Source of the DNA: Sanguinoderma infundibulare
Lineage: Eukaryota; Basidiomycota; Agaricomycetes; Polyporales; Polyporaceae
Direction of reading: 5' to 3'
Length of the DNA: 64,000 nucleotides
Assembly: GCA_032821775.1 (NCBI GenBank)
Contig: JAVLRN010000015.1
Span: 1 to 64,000 of the forward strand
Positions 20,853 to 33,616 of the stretch are shown here, piece by piece. The notes beneath the pieces are model-generated. The model was given only the letters and a program-made list of their open reading frames with translations. It ran no database searches and was not told the origin of the DNA. The position numbers and the translations under genes were made by a program. The first letter of the stretch is position 1. Each line of letters opens with the position of its first letter.

Positions 20853-21435
20853 CGTGGATGAGGATGACTTTTAGAGTGAGCTTCGAGTAGGGTCGCGAGG
20901 AGGTGCGGTGGCGGAGGAGCGGGTGGCAAGCAGAGCAGGGCACGGGCACACATGATGATGTGCTCAGGTGCACTTGATTGTCAGACTCGTTTCATTGTGT
21001 TCGCCGAGGTGCTGGTATTGCTTTCAAACAATGTCGCTCATTTATCTGTCCTGTATCTGTTGTGTATTCTGTGAATATATGCCCAAATAAGTGTCGCTAT
21101 TCCCCTGTATGTGTGATCCGGAACTGGTGCCCGCAATGTGAGTATTCCCCAAGTGATCACCAATTCCATGGCTAGATATCTACGAACATTTCACCCTCTT
21201 TTCTATGGATTCTGGATGGCAGATATACATCAGATTACAGAAGGTTTTCACCCAGTTCCCGCTTTTGGCTGCATGGTGAAATCACACAAAATCTGGTTGA
21301 CTTTGACCATATATATCCCCAGGATACAGGGTGGAAATCAACCGGCACTTGATCTCCAGAACAGGTGACTACACTCAACTTAGATGGGGGTAGTCCACCA
21401 TTTCTGGATGGTGATCGACCTGTCACTTTTGACGG
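20853..21435. other. No gene recognised; left flank of the retrotransposon
   Basis: AT-richer sequence without a convincing frame. The last five bases before the LTR are GACGG and find no match just after the 3' LTR. I see no tRNA or known repeat. Confidence 0.4.
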
Positions 21436-22369
21436 TGATGCGCACCCGATGCTTCTGTCCGCGGAAGTCGACGCAACTACCCCTTCTGGACAGTGCACCA
21501 CACGACGGCGCGGGAGTTCCCGAGTCGCTGACGGCATTGGGGGTTGCGTGGCGTGCCGACCCTATGGCACGAGGCGAAGGCCTGGAATGCCGATGATCCC
21601 CATCGCCGGCGCGACTTCTCCGATCGGTCCGAGTTGGCGGCCACAGCGAGCCGGCCTGACCATCTGCACCACATGCATGGTGGTGCAGTGGCGGGCCACA
21701 AGTTAAGTCATTCAGCATCTTTGCAGTCGCGTCACGCGACTGGCTGCAGATCATCTCTTACTAGTTGGTCTCGGTGACAGGTACCGGCCACGACTCCCGA
21801 CTGCGACTGCTGATGACTAACGACATCACGCGACCATGCGATGACAAGCCGAGCTGACCCCAAGTCGCACGACCGGTCACGGCCATGCGGTGGTCGCTGA
21901 CGTTCTCACAGGTTTCCGACACAGGTTGTCGCGGGCGCTCATTGCCGCGAGGCAGTCTAGGCTATAGTTGTCGTGCGTAGTTACAGGCAGGATGTACTTA
22001 ACTCAGTCGACTGCCGCTTAGGGCACACAATCTTCGACCCCCACCTTTTACCTCTCATTTCTCTGACGAGCAAGTGCAACTCGACATCGTCCTCTGTCGG
22101 GTGTTGCTAGCGACTGCGATTGCGACTTGCAACAGCGACAGCAACCCCGACTACGACTTTTGCGACAGCGACTTGCCGCATGACCCCGTCGCGGCTTTCA
22201 CCCTCCAGCTTCATTCGACTTTCCTTTCTTCTCCCCGGCACTGGTTACGGTCGCGACCAAAGGGAACCCGAGACCGTACTCGCCCTCCACACCGGCGACA
22301 TCGCTCCGACCTCGCCTCCCTCAGCCCTTGGTCGTCCCGACTGTTCACAGGCCCTGGGATAGTGTATCA
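21436..22369 (+). repeat. 5' LTR, 934 bp
   Basis: Starts TGATGCGCACC and ends GGGATAGTGTATCA. It has the same length as the 3' LTR. Differences from the 3' copy are almost all C/T or G/A at CpG dinucleotides. The right part (22110-22170) is rich in GCGAC words. Confidence 0.95.
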
Positions 22370-22372
22370 TTT

Positions 22373-22392
22373 TGGAGCCCACCGCGAGGGGG
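22373..22392 (+). other. Primer-binding-site-like sequence
   Basis: Three bases after the LTR end, a stretch begins TGGAGCCCACCGCG. The TGG start matches the CCA end of a tRNA and fits minus-strand priming. I cannot name the tRNA without a tRNA set. Confidence 0.6.
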
Positions 22393-22656
22393 AGTATAGA
22401 TCTCGCCTCCGCCTTTGGTGCGACCCCGTAACTTTCATACAGTGCCACGCTGACACCTCCCACTCCTTTGCATTCGTCGCTCGCACACGAGCTACTTGTC
22501 GCTCGCACACATAGGATCACTGACCTTGGACTTCAGCTCGGCAATGAGGCCTGATACAGTCACATCCTCAATTCCCTCTCTTGCGCCCTTGATCGTGGCA
22601 TCGATGCACTCGATAACTGACCCTCTTCTTCCGACTCGTCGTCCACAACATCTTCC

Positions 22657-25600
22657 ATGACGGTTAGGTCTAGAGTGACACGTGCGACGCCGAGCGCGAT
22701 TCCCGGCGAATTTCCCCTCCCACCATCGCCAGAACCCTGGGAAGACGTTCCACTTCCTCCTTTGCCCGATTACTGGACAGATGTTCCCCTCCCACCGTCG
22801 CCGGATATTGCTGCGACACCCTTGACAGCATCACTACAAGTTTCCCCATTCACTCCACTCAGTGAGCTCTCGTCACTCGCGATGGATCCCCCCGATCTTC
22901 AAGCGCCGCAGCCAGCAGCGCACCTGCCACCCGCGATGCCCGCGCGCAACCACGTGACTGCGCCAGTATTCGACCCCGAGCGACCAAGAACCTTGTGCGG
23001 CTTTTGGCAAGACCTCGATGTGCTCTTTGACAGGTGCCAGGTTGCCGCCACCTGACCGCGCAAACGATGGGCGATTCGCTATCTCGAGGTCGAGGTCGCC
23101 GACTTGTGGGAGTCGCTCCCCTCATATGAGGATGCGTACACATTCGAACAGTGGAAGACGAGCGTGGCCGAGCTATATCCCGGTGCGGATGAGGCCCACA
23201 AGTACTTGGTCGCTGACATGGATAACCTGGTCGCGGGTCGCGCAGCAACGCCGATCACGATGCTCGGTGAACTCTCCAGTTTTCATCGGGACTTCCTCAT
23301 GATGACTACCTATTTGATTCAGCACCAGCGACTGTCGGTACTGGAACAGTTGCGACTTTTCGCGCGCGGCATCCAACCGCCCTTATGGGACCAGGTAGCC
23401 CAGCAACTCCAGATCAAGTTTGTCGACCACCATCCTGACGACCCCTACGCCCTCCGAGACGTTCTCGAGGCTGCACAGTTCATGCTTCATGGGATGCCGA
23501 CAACAGCGGTCACGACGCCAACCGCGCCTGCAGCGGCGACGGCGACGGCGGCGGCGACAGCAACTGGCGTCAAGCTGGAAGATATCGAGCCCTTCTTCTG
23601 AATGATGGTGCAGGTGATACGTGACAACGGCGCCGGGGCAGGTGCCACAGGGCCACCACAGCGCGCCGACTATGGGCGACTGCCACCGATGGGTTTCTGC
23701 CACTACTGCAGTGACGCGGGCTGCCAGGTTCGCACCTGTCAGTTCGTCGACGAGGACATCAATGTGGGTCGTATCACACGGAACAATGATGGGAAGGTCG
23801 TTTTACCCAACAGGCAATTCGTACTGCGCAATCTACCCGGCCTGACCATGCACGACCACGCCTACGAGTGGCATCAGCACAATGCAACTGCGCCGGTAGG
23901 CCAGCTCCTCTTCCAGGTCGCACCAACGGCCCCAGCCACTGACACGACCAGCGATCGCATCGCCCAGCTCGAGCACAAGATCTTCGCCCTCCAACAAGCA
24001 AGGGAGAAGTTCGACGCAGTCGATATCATGACCATTCCCCAGCGACCGCGACCTGCAGCAAGAGTCAAGGAAGTTCCTGATGGGGGCCCCACGATAGCGA
24101 CCGCCAGTGGTTCCGGAACGAAGGCATCGGCCCCAGCCGCGACCAAGGCAACCGTGGCAGCCGCGCCAGCGTGGCCCGTCACCATCCTGCGACCACCGAC
24201 CCCGGCCACGTGACAAGGAGCGGCGCCCGAGCACCCGTTCACGGGAGCCCACGATGTGACTTATGCCCCGCCACGGATGACCAATGTCGGTGCAACACTG
24301 CGACTGGCGAGCGGTAAAGAGCGCGATCCAGCCTACTGCAACACGGTCCCGGTCTACCAGCCCAAGTTGATCGATGAGGTCTACTCGCGTGCAATGAAGA
24401 CACCAGTGATCACGCTCTCTGTCGAGGAGCTCCTCTGCATCGCGCCCGACGTGCGCACTAAGTTCCACGAGGCGATCACCCCAAAGCGCATACCGACTGA
24501 GCCACGCACAGTCACCTTTGCCAATGCGGCCAGCGACGACAAACTTGCAACCACGTGGTCCTGTCACGGCGAACCCCTGGAGCCGGGCGCGCTAGTAGTC
24601 CCTGACCTGTACAACGTCTACCTCTCATGACTCGGCCCCGGCCAAGAGCCGCAGCCGCTTGTGGTCGCAAAGGAGTCATATGCGCTGCGCTCGATCGTTG
24701 GCTGTCTCGATGGTAAGATCGACATCGAGGGAACCTTGGACGGCGGGGCACAAATTGTCTCGATCTCTGAGGGCCTCTGCCACCACGCGGCGCTCTTCTA
24801 TGATCCAACTGTGCAGCTGTACATGCAGTCAGCGAACGGGGCAGTCGACCCGTCGCTAGGTATCATTCGCAATGTGCCCTTCCTTGTCGGTGGTATTACG
24901 CTCTACCTACAGGTTCATGTCATTCGCAACGCACCTTACGACTTGCTCCTCGGTCGCCCCTTCAATGTCCTGACACGGAGCGTCATCAAGAACTTCGACA
25001 ATGAAGACCAGACGATCACGCTCGAGTGTCCAAACACACGACAAGTCATGACCATCCCGACGTGACCGCGAGGCCAGCCGACCTTTCAGTTTCACATCGA
25101 CAACAAGCGCGCCAAATCCATTTGAGGACGGGTCGCCCGACAGCGACTACACCCTCATCATTGACGACACTCCAGGGGGCCCCATTATCTCTGCCTATAC
25201 CCACGTCGCTGACGACTCTATTCCTATTCCAGCTCTCTATTTATCGGCCTGCGACCAACTACACGATCGTGCGACCGTGTATTTCTCAACTAATCTCACA
25301 ACTACTAGCAAAAAATGTCGTGCGACAAGCACGACGACCCTGGCGACATCACCAACCACTGCGACCTCGGACTCTTTCTCTCTCCTCGCGTCTCCAGTTT
25401 CTCCTGCATCTCCCTCTCTTGACATCGCTCTCTCTCTCTTCTTTATGCACCCCTGTTCTTCCTCACCTTCTTTCATATTCTCTTTTCTGACCAAAAACGG
25501 TCGCAGCTACTTCGCGCTGCAATCGCAAGATACCCCTGCAAATGTTTTCCTCACCACATGCGACTCCGTTACGAAAGGCCTCATTACCAAGAAGAAGTAC

Positions 25601-28600
25601 AAGCCAGTCGCGCGCAAGGTGCAACCGGTCCTAGGCTCATGCCCCGAACAGTTTCGCGTTGTGCGCAACATCACCGGTGACCTGCTCGTGAACATGCCGA
25701 TCCTCCCCGACCATCCACCCGACTTCGTCCCGACTGGTCACTACACCCGCGAATGCATGGAGGCCCTCGACAAGAAGCTGCAACTCGACTTCCTCTGGCC
25801 CGAAGAGCGCAAGCTCCTCCACTATTTCATGTGTGTCCACAATGCGGTGTTCACGTGGACCGACGAGGAGCGCGGCTGCTTCAAGCCCGAGTTCTTTCCA
25901 CCGGTCGATTTTCCGGTCGTGCCGCACACGCCTTGGGTCCAGAAGAACATCCCGATCCTGCCGGGTCTCTACAAGGAGGTCTGCGACATCATCAAGCGCA
26001 AAATCGCCGCTGGCGTGTATGAGCCGTCAAATTCATCATATCGCAGTCGCTGGTTCTGTGTTGCGAAAAAGGATGGGAAGCCGCGCATCATCCACAGTCT
26101 CGAGCCGCTCAACGAGGTCATGATCGCGCACTCGGGAGTAACCCCAACCCCCGACTACCTCACTGAACAGTTCAGTGGGCGACTGTGCGGCTCGATGTAT
26201 GACCTCTACATTGGCTACGATGAGCGACTGATCGCAAAATCGTCGCGCGACCTCACGACCTTCCAGACTCCATTTGGCGCGTTGCGACACTGTACCCTCC
26301 CGATGGGGTGGTGCAACTCGGTACCTATCTTTCACGACGATGTCACTTACATCTTGCAGCCCGAGATCCCGGAGTGGACGGTACCATATATCGACGACGT
26401 CCCCGGCAAGGGCCCAAAGTCCGACTATCGCGACCGTGACGGCAAGTATGAGACCATCCTGCGCAACCCCGGCATTCGTCGCTTCGTCAAGGAGCACTTC
26501 GACAACCAGAATCACATCGTCACACACATGAGCCACGCCGGCGGCACCTACTCCGGGCCAAAGTCGATGCCCATTGACATCGAGAACATCGTCATCGGCC
26601 AGCGATGCACACCAATCGGGCAACAACCCGAACAGTCGTGCGTCGCCCTCATCGTCAACTGGGGACCGTGCGGGAACATATCGGAGATCCGTGCATTCAT
26701 AGGCACGGTCGGCATCCTGCGACTTTTCATTCGAAACTTTGCGAAGCGCACCTGGCCACTTGTGAAGCTCACGCGGAAGGACGTCCCCTTCGAGTTCAGC
26801 GATGAGCAACTCCGTGCGCAGGAGGACCTCAAAAAGGCGGTCATCGAGTCGCTGGCGCTCTGCGCGATCGACTATGAGTCGGGCGCGGCCATCATCCTCG
26901 CCGTCGACACTTCCTACATCGCGGTCGGCTTCCACCTCTGCCAGTGCGACATCGATGACCTGCGCAAGCGGTACTACAGTCACTTTGGATCAATAACGCT
27001 CAATGACAGGGAGGTGCGATTCTCGCAACCGAAGCTCGAGATCTATGGCCTCTATCGTGCCCTGCGGAACCTCAAGGTCTACTTGATCGGTGTTCGAAAC
27101 CTCATCGTCGAGGTCGACACGCGATACATTCAGGGCATGCTCCAGAACCCTGACATTTCTCCGAGCGCTAGCATTAATCGTTGGATCGTCGCGATACTGA
27201 CGTTCCACTTCACTCTAGTGCACGTCCCGGGAATGTTGCACGGACCCGACAGGTTGTCGCGGTGACCACCACAACCAGGCGATGAGCCATGCGATGACGA
27301 TGACGGCTTTGAGGACTGGATTGACAAAGTCCATGGCTTCCTGCACCAGATGCTGCTGACGCGACCGCGACAATGCGCCTCTCCCCTGCAACTTTTCATG
27401 ATCGCGTCTCCGACCAGGGACGGTCGGGATTTCAGTGAGGGGGAGGGATTGACCGACCAGGAGCTGACAAGCGACACTGCGATCACGATGAGCGACATCC
27501 CGACCTCTGACTTCACGCGACGAGCGAATGAGCGACTCGACAAGGTCAAGAGGTGGCTCTGCGACCTCCAACAGCCGGGCGACATCTCCGACAAGGCGTA
27601 TCTGCAGTTCATCAAGTACTGCCAGCAGCACTTCATCGACGGCGACCGGCTATGGCAGAAGGACTCCCATGGTGCACACAAGCTCGTAGTCGGCCTCGGC
27701 CAGCGACTCGCGATCCTCCGACAAGCGCACGATGACATAGATCATCGCGGCAATTATGTGATGTTGCAGCTCATCGCGGAGCGATTCTGGTGGCCGTCCC
27801 TTTGCGAGGACGTCACTTGGTACGTTCGCACTTGCCATCTCTGCCAGACGAGACAGACATGACAGGTCCTTATCCCGCCGACGGTCGCGACACCCGCATC
27901 ACTGTTTGCGCGAGTCCACATCGACACCATGCACATGCCCACCTCCGGCAGCTTCAAGTACATCGTCCAGGCGCGCTGCGCGATCTCGCACTACCCGGAG
28001 TGGCGCATGCTCTACGTTGAGACCGAGAAGACCCTCGGCGACTGGCTGTTCCAAGACGTCATCTGTCGCTGGGGCGGCCTCATGGAGATCATCACCGACA
28101 ACGGCGCGGCTTTCGTCAAAGCGGCTGGCTACCTCGCGCGCAAGTATCACCTCCGACATATCCGAATCAGCAGCTACAACTCACGGGTGAACGGCATCAT
28201 TGAGCGACCCCACTTCGACGTGCGACAGGTTCTGTTCAAGGCTGCCGATGGTGACGAGACCAAGTGGTCGCAAGTCGCTCATTTCGCCTTCTGGGCAGAA
28301 AGGATAACTACGCAACATCGCATGGGCTGCTCACCATACTTCGCGGCTACAGGTTGTCATCCGATCCTGCCATTCGACATCGGCGAAGCGACCTATCTGC
28401 TCCCACTGCCCAACTCGATCCTGTCGATGACCGATCTCATCATGCAGCGCGTGACAGCACTCCAGAAGCGGCAAGACCAGATCGCCGACCTCCAGTCCAA
28501 TGTCTACTGAGCGCGACTTCGAGCAGTGTACAAGTTCGAGTGCGACCACGCGACGACCATCCGTGACTTCAACTTCAAACGCGGCGACCTTGTTCTCCTC

Positions 28601-28924
28601 CGACACACGCAGATCGAGAAGGCCCTCAACTGCAAAATGTGACCACGATACCTCGGGCCGCTTGTTGTCCTCGCCCACAACCGCGGAGGAGCGTACGTTG
28701 TCTGTGAACTCAACAGGACAGCATTTCACCAACCAGTCGCGGCCTTCCGACTCCTCCCCTACCTCGCGCGACAATCGATCGACATCGCCGACGAGCTCCT
28801 CGACATCTCGCAAAAGCGATTCGGGGAAATGAAGAACACCGACGACGTGGGTGTTGAGGATGATCATGCGGCTGGCGATGCGATATTGCTGAACAGTAGC
28901 AACGAGATGGGCGATACGGACTAG
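22657..28924 (+). pseudogene. Ty3-type gag-pol with nine in-frame TGA stops
   Basis: Gag starts at ATG 22657. Capsid-like helical sequence occupies 23060-23600. A zinc-knuckle-like CHYCSDAGCQVRTC, with Cys in place of His, lies near 23697. The protease (24660-25065) has LDGGAQIVSIS around the catalytic Asp and LLLGRPF later. Reverse transcriptase (about 25900-26700) has YIDDVP; RNase H is at about 26880-27265. Integrase (27480-28640) has the zinc-binding His/Cys set ending CHLCQ, and a DDE set in VHIDTM, ITDNGAAF and NGIIERPHF. TGA codons interrupt at 23053, 23599, 24211, 24628, 25063, 27263, 27860, 28508 and 28640. One frame change (+1) separates protease from reverse transcriptase near 25110. 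The terminal stop is TAG at 28922. Otherwise the frame is open, so decay is recent or selective. Confidence 0.93.
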
Positions 28925-29475
28925 TCGAGCTGAGTATCTGTTTTCATCGGTTATCCACTTTCATATCTCCCATATTGCGCTCCTTCTATCTTTTGCATAC
29001 TCCCAATCACCACTTCATAGTCTCTTGTTTATATTCTTTGCAACTTCAGACGCACCTTTGCGACCGATTTTTCCATTGCGACTTTGTCGTGATGGCGAGG
29101 GTTTTTGGCAATGAAGGACTTCACGCTGAGCCTTTCCCTTGGGAAACCTACCTTAGAACACACAGGCGTTCAAACCGAGATCAGATAGTATTATTGACTG
29201 GTGTATAATATAGGACTACTACGACCGAGGCGACACTGCGACACTGCGACACTGCGACTGCGACCAAGACTGTGACTGCAACAAGAAATAGACCGCGACA
29301 GCGACTGCAACAAGAAGACGACACGACAGCGACTGCAACTGGAATCATACAAGCCCCGAGGTGACACTATCTACACTACAATCCGGGACAAGACCAGAAC
29401 AGGATGAGATGACAAGAAAACTACAAGAAGAAAAGGGCAAGAAGAAGTCGTGACCGCGACGCGACAAGATGCGAC
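28925..29475. other. Internal spacer of the retrotransposon with GCGAC microsatellite
   Basis: A non-coding stretch between the pol stop and the stop of the antisense gene. At about 29225-29345 it contains tandem units close to CGACACTGC and GCGACTGCAACAAG. The same GCGAC word is frequent throughout the element. The convergent 3' ends of pol and the antisense gene meet here, so it probably holds both polyadenylation regions. Confidence 0.6.
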
Positions 29476-31424
29476 TTACTCCTCCATAGCTGCGGGCAAA
29501 GTCGCAGGGCCCCCCTCGCCATCGTCCTCGTGGTCGTCCTCACCCTCCGCATCCTCCGAGCCAGAGTCAGCCGATGACTCCCGGTACTCCGTGTCGTTGT
29601 CGTCGGTGGACTCGGGGGTCCAAGGCGACAGCTCCTGACTGAGCGCGACAAACTCACGCACTTGAGTGTCCTCGATGAGCTCAAGGAGGACCTCGGCCTG
29701 GGCGACGAGGGCCGAGCGGGTCGTGCGGAGACCACGGACGTAGGCGCGCCGCTCTGGCGACAAGTTGAGGAGGTTGAGGTCGTCGCCGCCATCGCCAGTG
29801 GTGGCGTTCCCTTGACCGGCGATGCGGGTATTGAGGGCGATGGTGATGGTGGGGAGGCCTTCCGCACAAAGAGTGCAGCGGAAGTCGCCGACCGGCGATG
29901 GGAGCCGGAGGGTGGTGGTGCGGGCGAAGGTGAGGTCGGCGAGTGGGTCAGGAGCAGAGGAGGGGCCAGCGACCGGAGGCGTGACACCACGCGGGCCGCT
30001 GTGGCCAGGGACAGCGCGTGCCGGGCGGGACTCCATGGGCGGGGGCGTCGCGCGACGCGTCCGACGAGCTCGGGTGCGGGGTGGCATTGCCTGCACGACC
30101 GAGCCCCGCTCATTCACCTTCCAGCACGGGGCTTGGCCGTCCTCGATGATGTGGCGGGAAGGCTGGATCGTGATCCCGCCTGCGACAAAAAGGGTCAGCG
30201 ACAGCGACGAGGGGAAGGAGGAGGCGTGACTTACCACACTCAAAGCCATGCCGATTGAACCAGGTCACGTATTGCTCTGAGCCAACCAAGCAGCCCTTCC
30301 ACGCCCCCGTGCACTTCACGCACTTGGCACGACCAGGCAGCAGGACACAAGTGGTCTCGCGCAGCTTGCCACAGTGGTCGCACTGCGCAAAAGGGTTAGT
30401 CACGACGCGAGACAGGAAGAGTGATGCGACTTACCGAGTACAGACTGAGGTCGATGGTGGGCTCGTCCACCGACTCCTCAGCCTCCTCCCCCTCCTCGTC
30501 CCCCATGGCTGCTGGTGGGGGTTGCGTGATGGTCACCAACTTTGCCTGACCCCGCTCGCGGCGCGTCAGTGAAGGAACGGTGGTGGCTGGTCGCACCTTC
30601 TTGGCAGGCGTGGGCTTGTTGCGGGCACCCTCACCAATGACCTCCACCGACCCCAACGAGGAGCGGGGGGTCCGATGATGCTTCTTGCGCTGGCCAGGGG
30701 CGGCGGGTGGTGGCGTAGGCAGTGGCGACGATTGAACGGCGGGAGCAGCGACCACGGCGGGGGCGACGGCGATGACGGTGGCGACAGCCACGGCGGTGGT
30801 GACCGCGCCAGCAATGGACGCACCAGAGATGTTCCACGACGTCGGGCACAACGTTGTGGGGTCGACGGTGGGAGGTGGCGGGGAGATGGTGAGGCCTGCA
30901 ATGGCAGTGGCGACGTCGGGTACAGAAGTCGGCGCGGGAGGAGCAGGCACGATGGCGGCAGGTGTGGCCAAGGGCTTGGCGCGTGACCTGGCGAGGAGTT
31001 GCGCAACCCAGGCGGCGCGCGAGGCCTCTGCGGCCTGGGCCTGCGCCAGGCGGTTGTAAGCACCAAGGAGGTGCAGACCGGCCCATGTGGGCCATGCCGC
31101 GGCCACCATGCTCCAGTACGCGGGGTACTCAAGGATAACACGGTCGGCGACCCGATGCACGTCCTCGGCAGCGGTGCCGGCATCCACCCAGACCCCCTGT
31201 GAACAAAGGAAGTCAGTGGTGACCCGAGTTGACAGCGCGCGACTTACAATTAGGTCGGCGATCGTCTCCCGCCAGTCTTGTTGCACCTCCTCCGACTGGC
31301 CGGGGCTGTTGAAGGGGTCGGTGAGGATGGCCTCGACGTTGTCGCGCGCCTTGTCGAGGGCGGCCTGGCGGAGGTCGTCGGTGGTCATGTGGGTCTTCTC
31401 CCTTGAAGCGGAATTGGCAGACAT
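29476..31424 (-). CDS. Antisense retroelement gene: Cys-cluster protein, 596 aa
   Basis: It lies on the opposite strand to gag-pol, between pol and the 3' LTR. Four exons (31424-31248, 31196-30435, 30382-30235, 30179-29476) have canonical GTAAGT donors, CAG acceptors and introns of 51, 52 and 55 nt. The 1791-nt frame has no internal stop. The N-terminal part (about 1-120) is helical and acidic/basic (contains DDLRQAALDKARDNVEAILT). An Ala/Pro/Val-rich linker follows. Exon 3 encodes six cysteines in the order C-x2-C-x7-C-x8-C-x2-C-x6-C, starting CDHCGKL, which looks like a small zinc-binding cluster. A Gly-Ile-Thr segment, a basic patch (RTRARRTRRA), a leucine-rich helix and a very acidic tail come last. 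Many basidiomycete hypothetical proteins have a similar Cys cluster. I cannot assign a function; DNA or RNA binding is a guess. Confidence 0.8.
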
Positions 31425-31502
31425 GGTGCGAGGGGGGCGAGGAAGTGGGTGAGACTGGCGAGGGTGAGGAAAGGAGGAGCGATGGTGGAACCATTGGCAA
31501 CC

Positions 31503-31516
31503 GGGTTTTTATGCAG
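31503..31516 (-). promoter_or_regulatory. TATA-like box of the antisense gene
   Basis: On the minus strand the sequence reads GCATAAAAACC about 80 bp before the antisense start codon, a normal distance for a fungal TATA-driven gene. It lies inside the element, 260 bp from the 3' LTR, so the gene has its own promoter rather than an LTR promoter. This is inferred from sequence only. Confidence 0.5.
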
Positions 31517-31763
31517 CGCGCGGCAACTTGGGCGACTTCTCGTGCCGGCTCCTCGTTAAGGAGCTGGGAGTGCAGGGTCGCCTGTTTAAGTCCACCCTTT
31601 GTCGCGCGACAGGCCAAAGAACCCCCCTTATCCGAGAGGAAGCACGAGAAGGCGTCCGACATAGGTCGCCACCTATCAAACTGTCAAGAAGAGAAGACCA
31701 CGTGGCGACGGCACCGCTGCCACAAGATGTTTCACTCGGCGACCAAGGACGGTCGAGATCACA

Positions 31764-31775
31764 GTGAGGGGGAGG
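31764..31775 (+). other. Polypurine tract
   Basis: GTGAGGGGGAGG lies immediately before the 3' LTR, where plus-strand DNA synthesis is primed in LTR elements. The preceding bases are also purine-rich. Confidence 0.8.
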
Positions 31776-32709
31776 TGATGCGCACCCGATGCTTCTGTCC
31801 GTGGAAGTTGACACAACTACCCCTTCCGGACAGTGCACCATGCAACGGCGCGGGAGTTCCCGAGTCACCAACGGCATCGGGGGTTGCGTGGCGTGCTGAC
31901 CCTACGGCGCGAGGTAAAGGCCTGGAACGCCAACGATCCCCATCGCCGGCGTGACTTCTCCGATCGGTCCGAGTTGGCGGCCACAGCGAGCTGGCCTGAC
32001 CGTCTGCACCACGCGCATGGTGGCGCAGTGGCGGGCCACAAGTTAAGTCGTTCAGCATCTTTGCAGTCGCATTGCGCGACTGGCTGCGGATCGTCTCTCA
32101 CTAGTTGGTCTCGGTGACAGGTACCGGCCGCGACTCCCGACTGCGACCGCCGACGACTAACGACATCGCGTGACCATGCGACGACAAGCCGAGCCAACCC
32201 CAAGTCGCATGACCGGTCGCGGCCACGCGGTGGTCGCTGACATTCTGACGGGTTTCCGACACAGGTTGTCGCAGGCGCTCATCGCCGCGAGGCAGTCTAG
32301 GCTATAGTCATCGTGCGTAGTTACAGGCAGGATGTACTTAACTCAGTCGACCGCCGCTTAGGGCACACAATCTTCGACCCCCACCTTTTACCTCTCATTT
32401 CTCTGACGAGCAAGTGCAACTCGACATCGTCCTCTGTCGGGTGTTGCTAGCGACTGCGATTGCGACTTGCAACAGCGACAGCAACCCCGACTACGACTTT
32501 TGCGACAGCGACTCGCCGCGCGACCCCGTCGCGGCTTTCACCCTCCAGCTTCGTTCGACTTTCCTTTCTTCTCCCCGGCACTGGTTACAGTCGTGACCAA
32601 AGGGAACCCGAGACCATACTCGCCCTCCACACCGGCGACGTCGCTCCGACCTCGCCTCCCTCAGCCCTCGGTCGTCCCAACTGTTCACAGGCCCTGGGAT
32701 AGTGTATCA
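31776..32709 (+). repeat. 3' LTR, 934 bp
   Basis: Same boundaries and length as the 5' LTR. Differences between the two copies are almost all transitions that remove a CpG in one copy, and both LTRs are affected. Confidence 0.95.
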
Positions 32710-32731: not shown

Positions 32732-33616
32732 AAGGTTTCCTCAGCAACCATTAGCCAGGTCACCTCTCCTCGCTAACTAACACCATTCTATCACCTATAT
32801 CCAGGTTAAAACTGGCATTGGTGGGAGTGACATCAGTAAATAATACTCCACACACTTTCCTGACGTCTCTGAGGCCAAGGGTGGTCACCTATCCCTTTTT
32901 TTTCCAACTACCATATGTTATGTGACTCACCTTATTGAGACTGGGATGGCCAATACCACTGTTCAGGTCCACAATTCTTATAAGGATGCATTCCTCAGGA
33001 CTGTATGTGTCTATGTTATTCATTGTAGGGTGAAGGGATAAAGCACAATTGCAGTAATGATGAGGAAACACATTCAACTCAACATTGTATACAAGGCCAA
33101 GCAGTACAATGTCACTTTGTCAAAGAAATGCTAGACTATAAAGGAATGAATAAGGCTGATATCATCAGAGAAGACTAATATGAACAAAATTGGGTCATAT
33201 GAGAGGAAGTATATGTGGAAAAAGAGGGCAGAGAGGCTGAGTAACTAGATGGTTAACTGCATAATGAAGGTTAGAGGTGTTTCTTCATCGTTACTGCAAT
33301 TGTGCTTTATCCCTTCACCCTACAATGAATAACATAGACACATACAGTCCTGAGGAATGCATCCTTATAAGAATTGTGGACCTGAACAGTGGTATTGGCC
33401 ATCCCAGTCTCAATAAGGTGAGTCACATAACATATGGTAGTTGGAAAAAAAAGGGATAGGTGACCACCCTTGGCCTCAGAGACGTCAGGAAAGTGTGTGG
33501 AGTATTATTTACTGATGTCACTCCCACCAATGCCAGTTTTAACCTGGATATAGGTGATAGAATGGTGTTAGTTAGCGAGGAGAGGTGACCTGGCTAATGG
33601 TTGCTGAGGAAACCTT
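32732..33616. repeat. Large palindrome (340-bp arms, 206-bp spacer)
   Basis: The left arm 32732-33071 and right arm 33278-33616 are inverted copies that I can read as identical except for two or three bases at their inner ends (ATGATGAGG against ACGATGAAG). The arms start 22 bp after the 3' LTR, and the right arm runs directly into the dispersed repeat at 33614. The small open frames in each arm (for example 33277-33459) mirror each other and carry no known motif. A foldback-type transposon, or two head-to-head copies of one element, would explain this. Confidence 0.93.

Follow-up and report, generated by a model that had tools for sequence, protein, structure and literature searches.

Why does a gene with a complete spliced frame lie on the minus strand of a retrotransposon whose own gag-pol has decayed, and does that gene belong to the element? 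The locus lies in a window of 64,000 nucleotides on contig C15 of Sanguinoderma infundibulare; the genome searched for its relatives comprises 48.9 Mb in 87 contigs.

Structure of the antisense gene and its host element

The host element is a Ty3-type LTR retrotransposon on the plus strand (21434..32709), recognised by its LTR match, pol domains and in-frame stops. Its 5' LTR (21434..22369, plus strand) and 3' LTR (31774..32709, plus strand), assigned by LTR match, are 936 bp long and 93.4% identical. The RT_RNaseH domain scores above the Pfam cut-off, protease-like matches occur too, and the RT-RNase H part of pol (25277..27265, plus strand) is open in the window, with no stops. A non-coding stretch after pol (28926..29475, plus strand) holds 13 copies of the pentamer GCGAC and no GTCGC. 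Named relatives of pol among the 120 database matches listed come from Meripilus, Mycena, Armillaria and Sphagnurus, which points to a probable agaricomycete host.

The preliminary description held that gag-pol was dead, with nine stops and a frame change. The decay stands; the count does not. Compared with a young copy of a related type, B, the window has seven in-frame stops in gag-PR (one of them also in the B copy), none in RT-RH and four in the integrase. The frame change does not represent damage either: the aligned gag-pol frames of the window contain no frame-shifting gaps, and the PR-to-RT frame change is native, because young copies of the B type and of a further type, C, have the same change. 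Death of pol by frameshift is therefore rejected.

Two further features of the element region were observed. A stop between gag and protease (window 24211-24213) is common to the window and the B copy, and the C copy has a single 897-aa open frame across gag and protease (L076 and L077 compared); this stop represents either readthrough or a shared loss. Starting 22 bp past the 3' LTR is an inverted repeat (32732-33616) with arms of 347 nt, 99% complementary and 191 nt apart, which looks like a young palindromic insertion.

The antisense gene runs on the minus strand from 31424 to 29476, with four exons and a CDS of 1791 nt (596 aa and a stop). In the exon model, all on the minus strand, these are: exon 1 with the start codon (31248..31424); intron 1 (31197..31247; 51 nt, phase 0); exon 2 (30435..31196); intron 2 (30383..30434; 52 nt, phase 0); exon 3 (30235..30382; 148 nt), which encodes the six-cysteine cluster and is also defined by the cysteine-exon alignment; intron 3 (30180..30234; 55 nt, phase 1); and exon 4 (29476..30179), which encodes a predicted helix, an acidic tail and the stop codon. 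Each intron has the form GTAAGT..CAG. Introns 1 and 2 are kept in other types, and the position of intron 3 is kept in the B and C types. The exon model thus confirms the 596-codon frame and the three short introns that had been described. These introns survive retrotransposition because the gene is antisense, so that splicing of the genomic RNA does not remove them, a consequence of established retroelement biology.

The gene also has its own TATA-like box, as previously claimed. This box, CATAAAA (31506..31513, minus strand), occupies the same position in nine of the 11 promoters aligned; its counterparts in the B and C types are CATATAAGA and CATAAAGG. Upstream of it, the aligned promoters reveal an inverted GTCGC/GCGAC pair (31600..31611, minus strand), GTCGCGCGAC, which is intact in 4 of the 11, with the GCGAC half present in 10.

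The encoded protein contains each of the features ascribed to it earlier: a six-cysteine cluster (C314-x2-C-x7-C-x8-C-x2-C-x6-C), basic stretches and an acidic tail. GAL4-type Zn2Cys6 regulators likewise have six cysteines in the order CxxC-C-CxxC-C. Their spacing rule is C-x2-C-x6-C-x(5-12)-C-x2-C-x(6-8)-C, with a usual first loop of 6 residues, whereas the first loop of the antisense proteins is x7 in the A type (that of the window), B and C, and x5 in a more distant type, X. No family reaches the cut-off in a Pfam search of the antisense protein. In a PDB profile search, GAL4 accounts for four of five matches and for the best one, none of them significant (E 0.81 or worse), and the structure model of the cysteine exon is of low confidence (mean pLDDT 62) and shows no GAL4 fold. 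The label "zinc-cluster-like" therefore holds for the six-cysteine exon, and a strict Zn2Cys6 domain is not established. In exon 4, a 40-residue helix is predicted with modest confidence (pLDDT about 70-82 for the helix, 59 for the whole model).

Copies, position and constraint across the genome

The antisense gene is present in other copies of the element, in the A, B and C types. A DNA search recovers eight full-length A-type genes, the window and seven others at 78-92% identity. Six of the eight are without an indel relative to the window, and four have a whole frame (the window, L002, L003 and L006). The A-type introns are in place, with one GT donor lost in L007 and the first donor altered in L003 and L004. 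Damage consists of one stop each in L004 and L005, two in L007 and a frame-changing length difference in L008. A protein search adds the deeper types A2, A3, B and C. Intron places and phases (0, 0, 1) are identical in A, B and C, and exon 3 measures 148 nt in these types and 151 nt in A3. Early stops occur in two of the five gene models built (one C copy and A3). In eight B copies, the matches to exons 1, 2 and 4 are free of inner stops (exon 3 is not listed separately). The six cysteines are invariant in an alignment of 14 cysteine exons, although the collecting pattern itself demanded six; this alignment derives from 19 pattern matches, five of which were left out (two chance matches and three with internal stops).

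Could the frame simply be a chance open frame in GC-rich DNA? The window copy, taken alone, could lack stops by luck (P=0.23). However, the same spliced architecture, phases included, recurs between types at synonymous divergences of 0.6-1.0 and with dN/dS below 1, and the probability we assign to a chance frame is negligible. As judged from its sequence, the antisense gene is a genuine spliced gene of the retrotransposon.

Beyond this genome, neither the full protein (596 aa) nor an exon-4 alignment used as query returned a homologue at E 0.01; a pol query returned 1078 proteins at E 1e-10. Absence is only weakly indicated, because each search for the antisense protein scored about 8000 candidates, proline/alanine-rich words may crowd relatives out, and the length limits applied to the 596-aa query exclude single-exon gene calls.

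Whether the gene always lies antisense between pol and the 3' LTR had been proposed as a check. A pol search gave 161 candidates, 67 of which were scored; near-full-length matches with an identity of 75% or more number 28. All 28 have the antisense gene on the opposite strand downstream of pol, at 2.2-2.5 kb past the RNase H end in 25 copies, at 3.2 kb in one and at 15-19 kb in two, which nested insertions may have split. Beside a 29th pol match, which is partial (C4:2016066), there is a B gene as well. LTRs, gag-pol and gene position are thus those of an LTR element with a conserved antisense extra gene (aORF-3R type).

More distant families were also compared. X elements (pol about 48-63% identical) also carry an antisense gene; BLAST gives no alignment of its product with the window protein (best E 0.6), but the cysteine layout is in the same place. 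Six such X-type genes (C2:1035773, C2:1369899, C4:1057615, C3:443394, C2:2422653 and C17:263699) are antisense to a pol match and follow it within a few kb. In a related family with pol about 43% identical, the antisense gene is absent from the four copies read, of about 16, and the element common to these copies extends to about 3.35 kb beyond RNase H.

One X-type antisense gene is broken into two pieces that lie 13 kb from each other and match the query at 95% and 100% identity (L072, C4:2870000-2875815, and C4:2859263-2860117), as if interrupted by an insertion. At C2:1160805-1177893, an X-type antisense gene and X-type pol pieces flank a C-type element, as in a nested insertion. At C8:2120500-2129500 (L078), tandem genes are related to the X-type antisense protein, with no pol match within the 9 kb read. 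Similar tandem loci lie at C14:27-55 kb and C2:276-349 kb, and those on C8 and C14 share the order and similar spacing of four matches. The tandem genes represent a host family, domesticated copies or another mobile unit.

These tandem relatives, free of pol in the stretch read on C8, favour a different origin: the gene may possibly have been captured from a host family as cargo, or the host copies domesticated from elements, with a role in host biology. Against this, the gene adjoins all of the near-full-length close pol copies and recurs in deeper families, as would a working part of the element, and it is the X type, and not the window protein itself, that is directly linked to the tandem loci. 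A host role appears unlikely, if still credible.

Selection on the antisense gene is indicated by dN/dS, for which a value near 1 had been named as the contrary outcome. All values are below 1: 0.27 (0.21-0.33) for B vs C; 0.44-0.50 for close A-type pairs, and up to 0.58 in another run; and 0.69-0.70 for A-B and A-C, where dS is near saturation. B-C differences by codon position number 114/93/241, a third-position excess with P=2e-19. Close A-type pairs have little or no such excess (P 0.006-0.13 in nine pairs), as expected if post-insertion decay dilutes the signal. Some carriers of the antisense gene are recently inserted: the LTRs of a B copy differ at 2 of 984 aligned bp, and those of a C copy at 5 of 986.

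The intactness of the window gene within a dead element, earlier taken as a sign of selection, does not exceed chance. The window antisense CDS has 96 private changes, 70 of them CpG losses. Random placement of these changes yields a mean of 1.4 stops and none in 23% of runs (P(0)=0.23 under neutral decay), and intactness is therefore rejected as selection evidence. Synonymous private changes are slightly in excess (43 vs 34.9 expected, P=0.043).

Decay itself follows a pattern. In the window antisense CDS and in aligned pol copies, old copies decay mostly at CpG, and 29-39% of the CpGs of the window pol are lost, depending on context. Because dead copies decay at CpG, they are probably methylated. 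This decay, which suggests methylation, has no TCG preference, and repeat-induced point mutation (RIP) restricted to TCG is rejected.

Constraint also bears on the proposal that the antisense transcript, and not the protein, matters, by pairing with sense RNA and limiting copy number through dsRNA or interference. The antisense gene does lie within the sense transcription unit, and a review proposes the same for plant elements (PMC7264820). However, amino-acid constraint between types, the retention of introns and cysteines, and the TATA-like box of the gene itself argue for a protein product. RNA and protein roles could coexist, and an explanation by the transcript in place of the protein is rather doubtful.

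Apparent module history of the 3' part

The antisense gene and pol differ in divergence. Within types, the ratio of antisense to pol dS is 0.6-1.1 (five pairs); between types it is 6.5-9.5 (three pairs), with antisense vs pol dS of 0.641 vs 0.067 for B-C, 0.99 vs 0.143 for A-B and 0.918 vs 0.142 for A-C. Along the B-C alignment, the first 1.8 kb past RNase H are 94-99% identical. Identity is about 72-74% over the antisense gene, continuing into the left part of the LTR; it is 87% over the next 361 bp of the LTR and 98.6% over the last 285 bp. By these alignments, the 3' part, comprising the antisense gene and the left LTR part, has a different history from pol. Because its dS matches that of pol within types and far exceeds it between types, the antisense gene is apparently a module swapped between elements.

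Retroelements often evolve fastest in the regions beyond pol, which would allow the 3' region simply to have evolved faster than pol, with no module exchange. Such a rate difference is hard to reconcile with a dS that agrees with pol in the within-type pairs and exceeds it only between types, or with the return of B and C to 98.6% identity at the right LTR end. Faster evolution of the 3' region is accordingly given very little probability. For module exchange, template switching by the reverse transcriptase offers a natural mechanism: mosaics of pol and 3' part would arise from switches between RNAs packaged together.

The GCGAC pentamer and the possible role of the protein

GCGAC has the highest Markov-1 z-score among all pentamers in A, B and C, with 108 observed vs 29 expected in A, 178 vs 51 in B and 186 vs 52 in C (window 21434-32709 for A; L046, L047, L052, L055, L068, L070, L076 and L077 for B and C). 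In A, CGACT is marginally more enriched than GCGAC when compared with the window flanks. The excess of GCGAC, 3-4 fold over the Markov expectation, extends through the coding and non-coding parts of the entire element and has its edges where the element ends; in the window outside the element the pentamer occurs at 1.8 per kb vs 1.5 expected from composition. The non-coding stretch after pol is strongly oriented, with 23.6 GCGAC vs 0.0 GTCGC per kb (13 and 0 in the bin 29001-29500). The motif has little preference for particular neighbouring bases, and its copies often lie 6 or 12 nt apart. Genome-wide, there are 223 triple clusters of GCGAC vs 56 of the reversed pattern.

Two simpler sources of the motif were considered. 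Codon usage is rejected by synonymous shuffles, which in B give 19 vs 7.6 for RT-RH, 30 vs 15.3 for the integrase, 25 vs 11.7 for gag and, for the antisense CDS read as GTCGC, 37 vs 23.5. The opposite strand is enriched in B pol (14 vs 5.9) and not significantly so in the B antisense CDS (8 vs 5.5). The idea that GCGAC marks CpGs spared by mutation finds no consistent support in six dead or ageing copies; in the window, 9 of 31 motif CpGs are lost vs 39 of 122 and 42 of 109, and thus are not spared, which counts against a simple protein-motif link.

Motif density and motif sites behave differently. The antisense genes of B and C have 43 and 46 GCGAC sites, of which 19 are common, a fraction like that of other pentamers; density is therefore maintained although the individual sites change. 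A single motif is common to A, B and C, types whose cysteine exons differ widely (35% identity to the window), and this too argues against a simple link between protein and motif. Enrichment is only weak in X elements, whose antisense protein is far more divergent, and in the family that lacks the antisense gene 3-7 sites occur per 5.2 kb (four copies, flanking DNA included). GCGAC is a possible target of the antisense protein.

Two known systems resemble this arrangement. HBZ of HTLV-1, a nuclear bZIP protein with activation and dimerisation parts, is the product of an antisense gene that is spliced and lies at the 3' end of a retroelement. The antisense gene described here is likewise spliced and at the 3' end; in a Pfam search, the window protein has no bZIP match and so is not HBZ-like in this respect. 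VANDALs are DNA transposons, and their VANC genes are not antisense. VANC21 of Arabidopsis VANDAL binds a short motif that is dense and in one orientation in non-coding parts, and VANC proteins are element-encoded and fast-evolving, with related targets (PMC5735166). GCGAC in A, B and C has the density of such a short motif; unlike the VANC motif, it fills coding regions too and is common to diverged types.

Plants, too, are known to have antisense genes located between pol and the 3' LTR (PMC7264820 and PMC11963269). There, Grande gene23, RIRE2 and Retand TRP28 lie antisense in this position in most copies, TRP28 is predicted to bind DNA, and repeats are often in the same region. The TRP28 domain, PF04195, has no match in the window protein in a Pfam search. 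Unlike the plant extra ORFs, the gene here is a conserved four-exon gene with a cysteine cluster; the text of the Retand paper mentions introns nowhere. The fungal case is brtn of the Boty retrotransposons of Botrytis cinerea (Zhao et al. 2011, as cited in PMC7264820 and PMC8365987), which gives a fungal LTR element an extra antisense gene, again located between pol and the 3' LTR. Its host is an ascomycete, and the comparison with the window gene draws on the citing descriptions. Among the titles and abstract openings covered, no antisense gene that is spliced and encodes a cysteine cluster is described for a basidiomycete Ty3 element, nor are a module-like history and a GCGAC motif of such elements.

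Taken together with these precedents, our reading, held at slightly better than even confidence, is that the antisense gene encodes a DNA-binding accessory regulator of the element, HBZ- or VANC-like. A Ty3-type group would carry this spliced gene antisense between pol and the 3' LTR. The protein would be nuclear and would bind DNA via the six-cysteine exon; the exon-4 helix could dimerise; and the acidic tail could activate. From these features we infer a role as regulator or silencing suppressor, in which the protein would regulate or de-silence its own element, with the GCGAC saturating the elements as its candidate target. A more specific, VANC-like version proposes that the cysteine-cluster protein recognises GCGAC and frees the element from CpG methylation, with the gene and left LTR part forming a swappable specificity cassette traded by recombination. 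That version is improbable as it stands.

PMC7264820 and PMC11963269 both describe the function of such extra antisense genes in LTR retrotransposons as unknown. Here, recent near-identical copies, a conserved intron-bearing gene, apparent module swaps and a candidate motif open this function to direct tests. Should the protein control its element, fungi would have their own equivalent of retroviral accessory regulators or of plant anti-silencing proteins.
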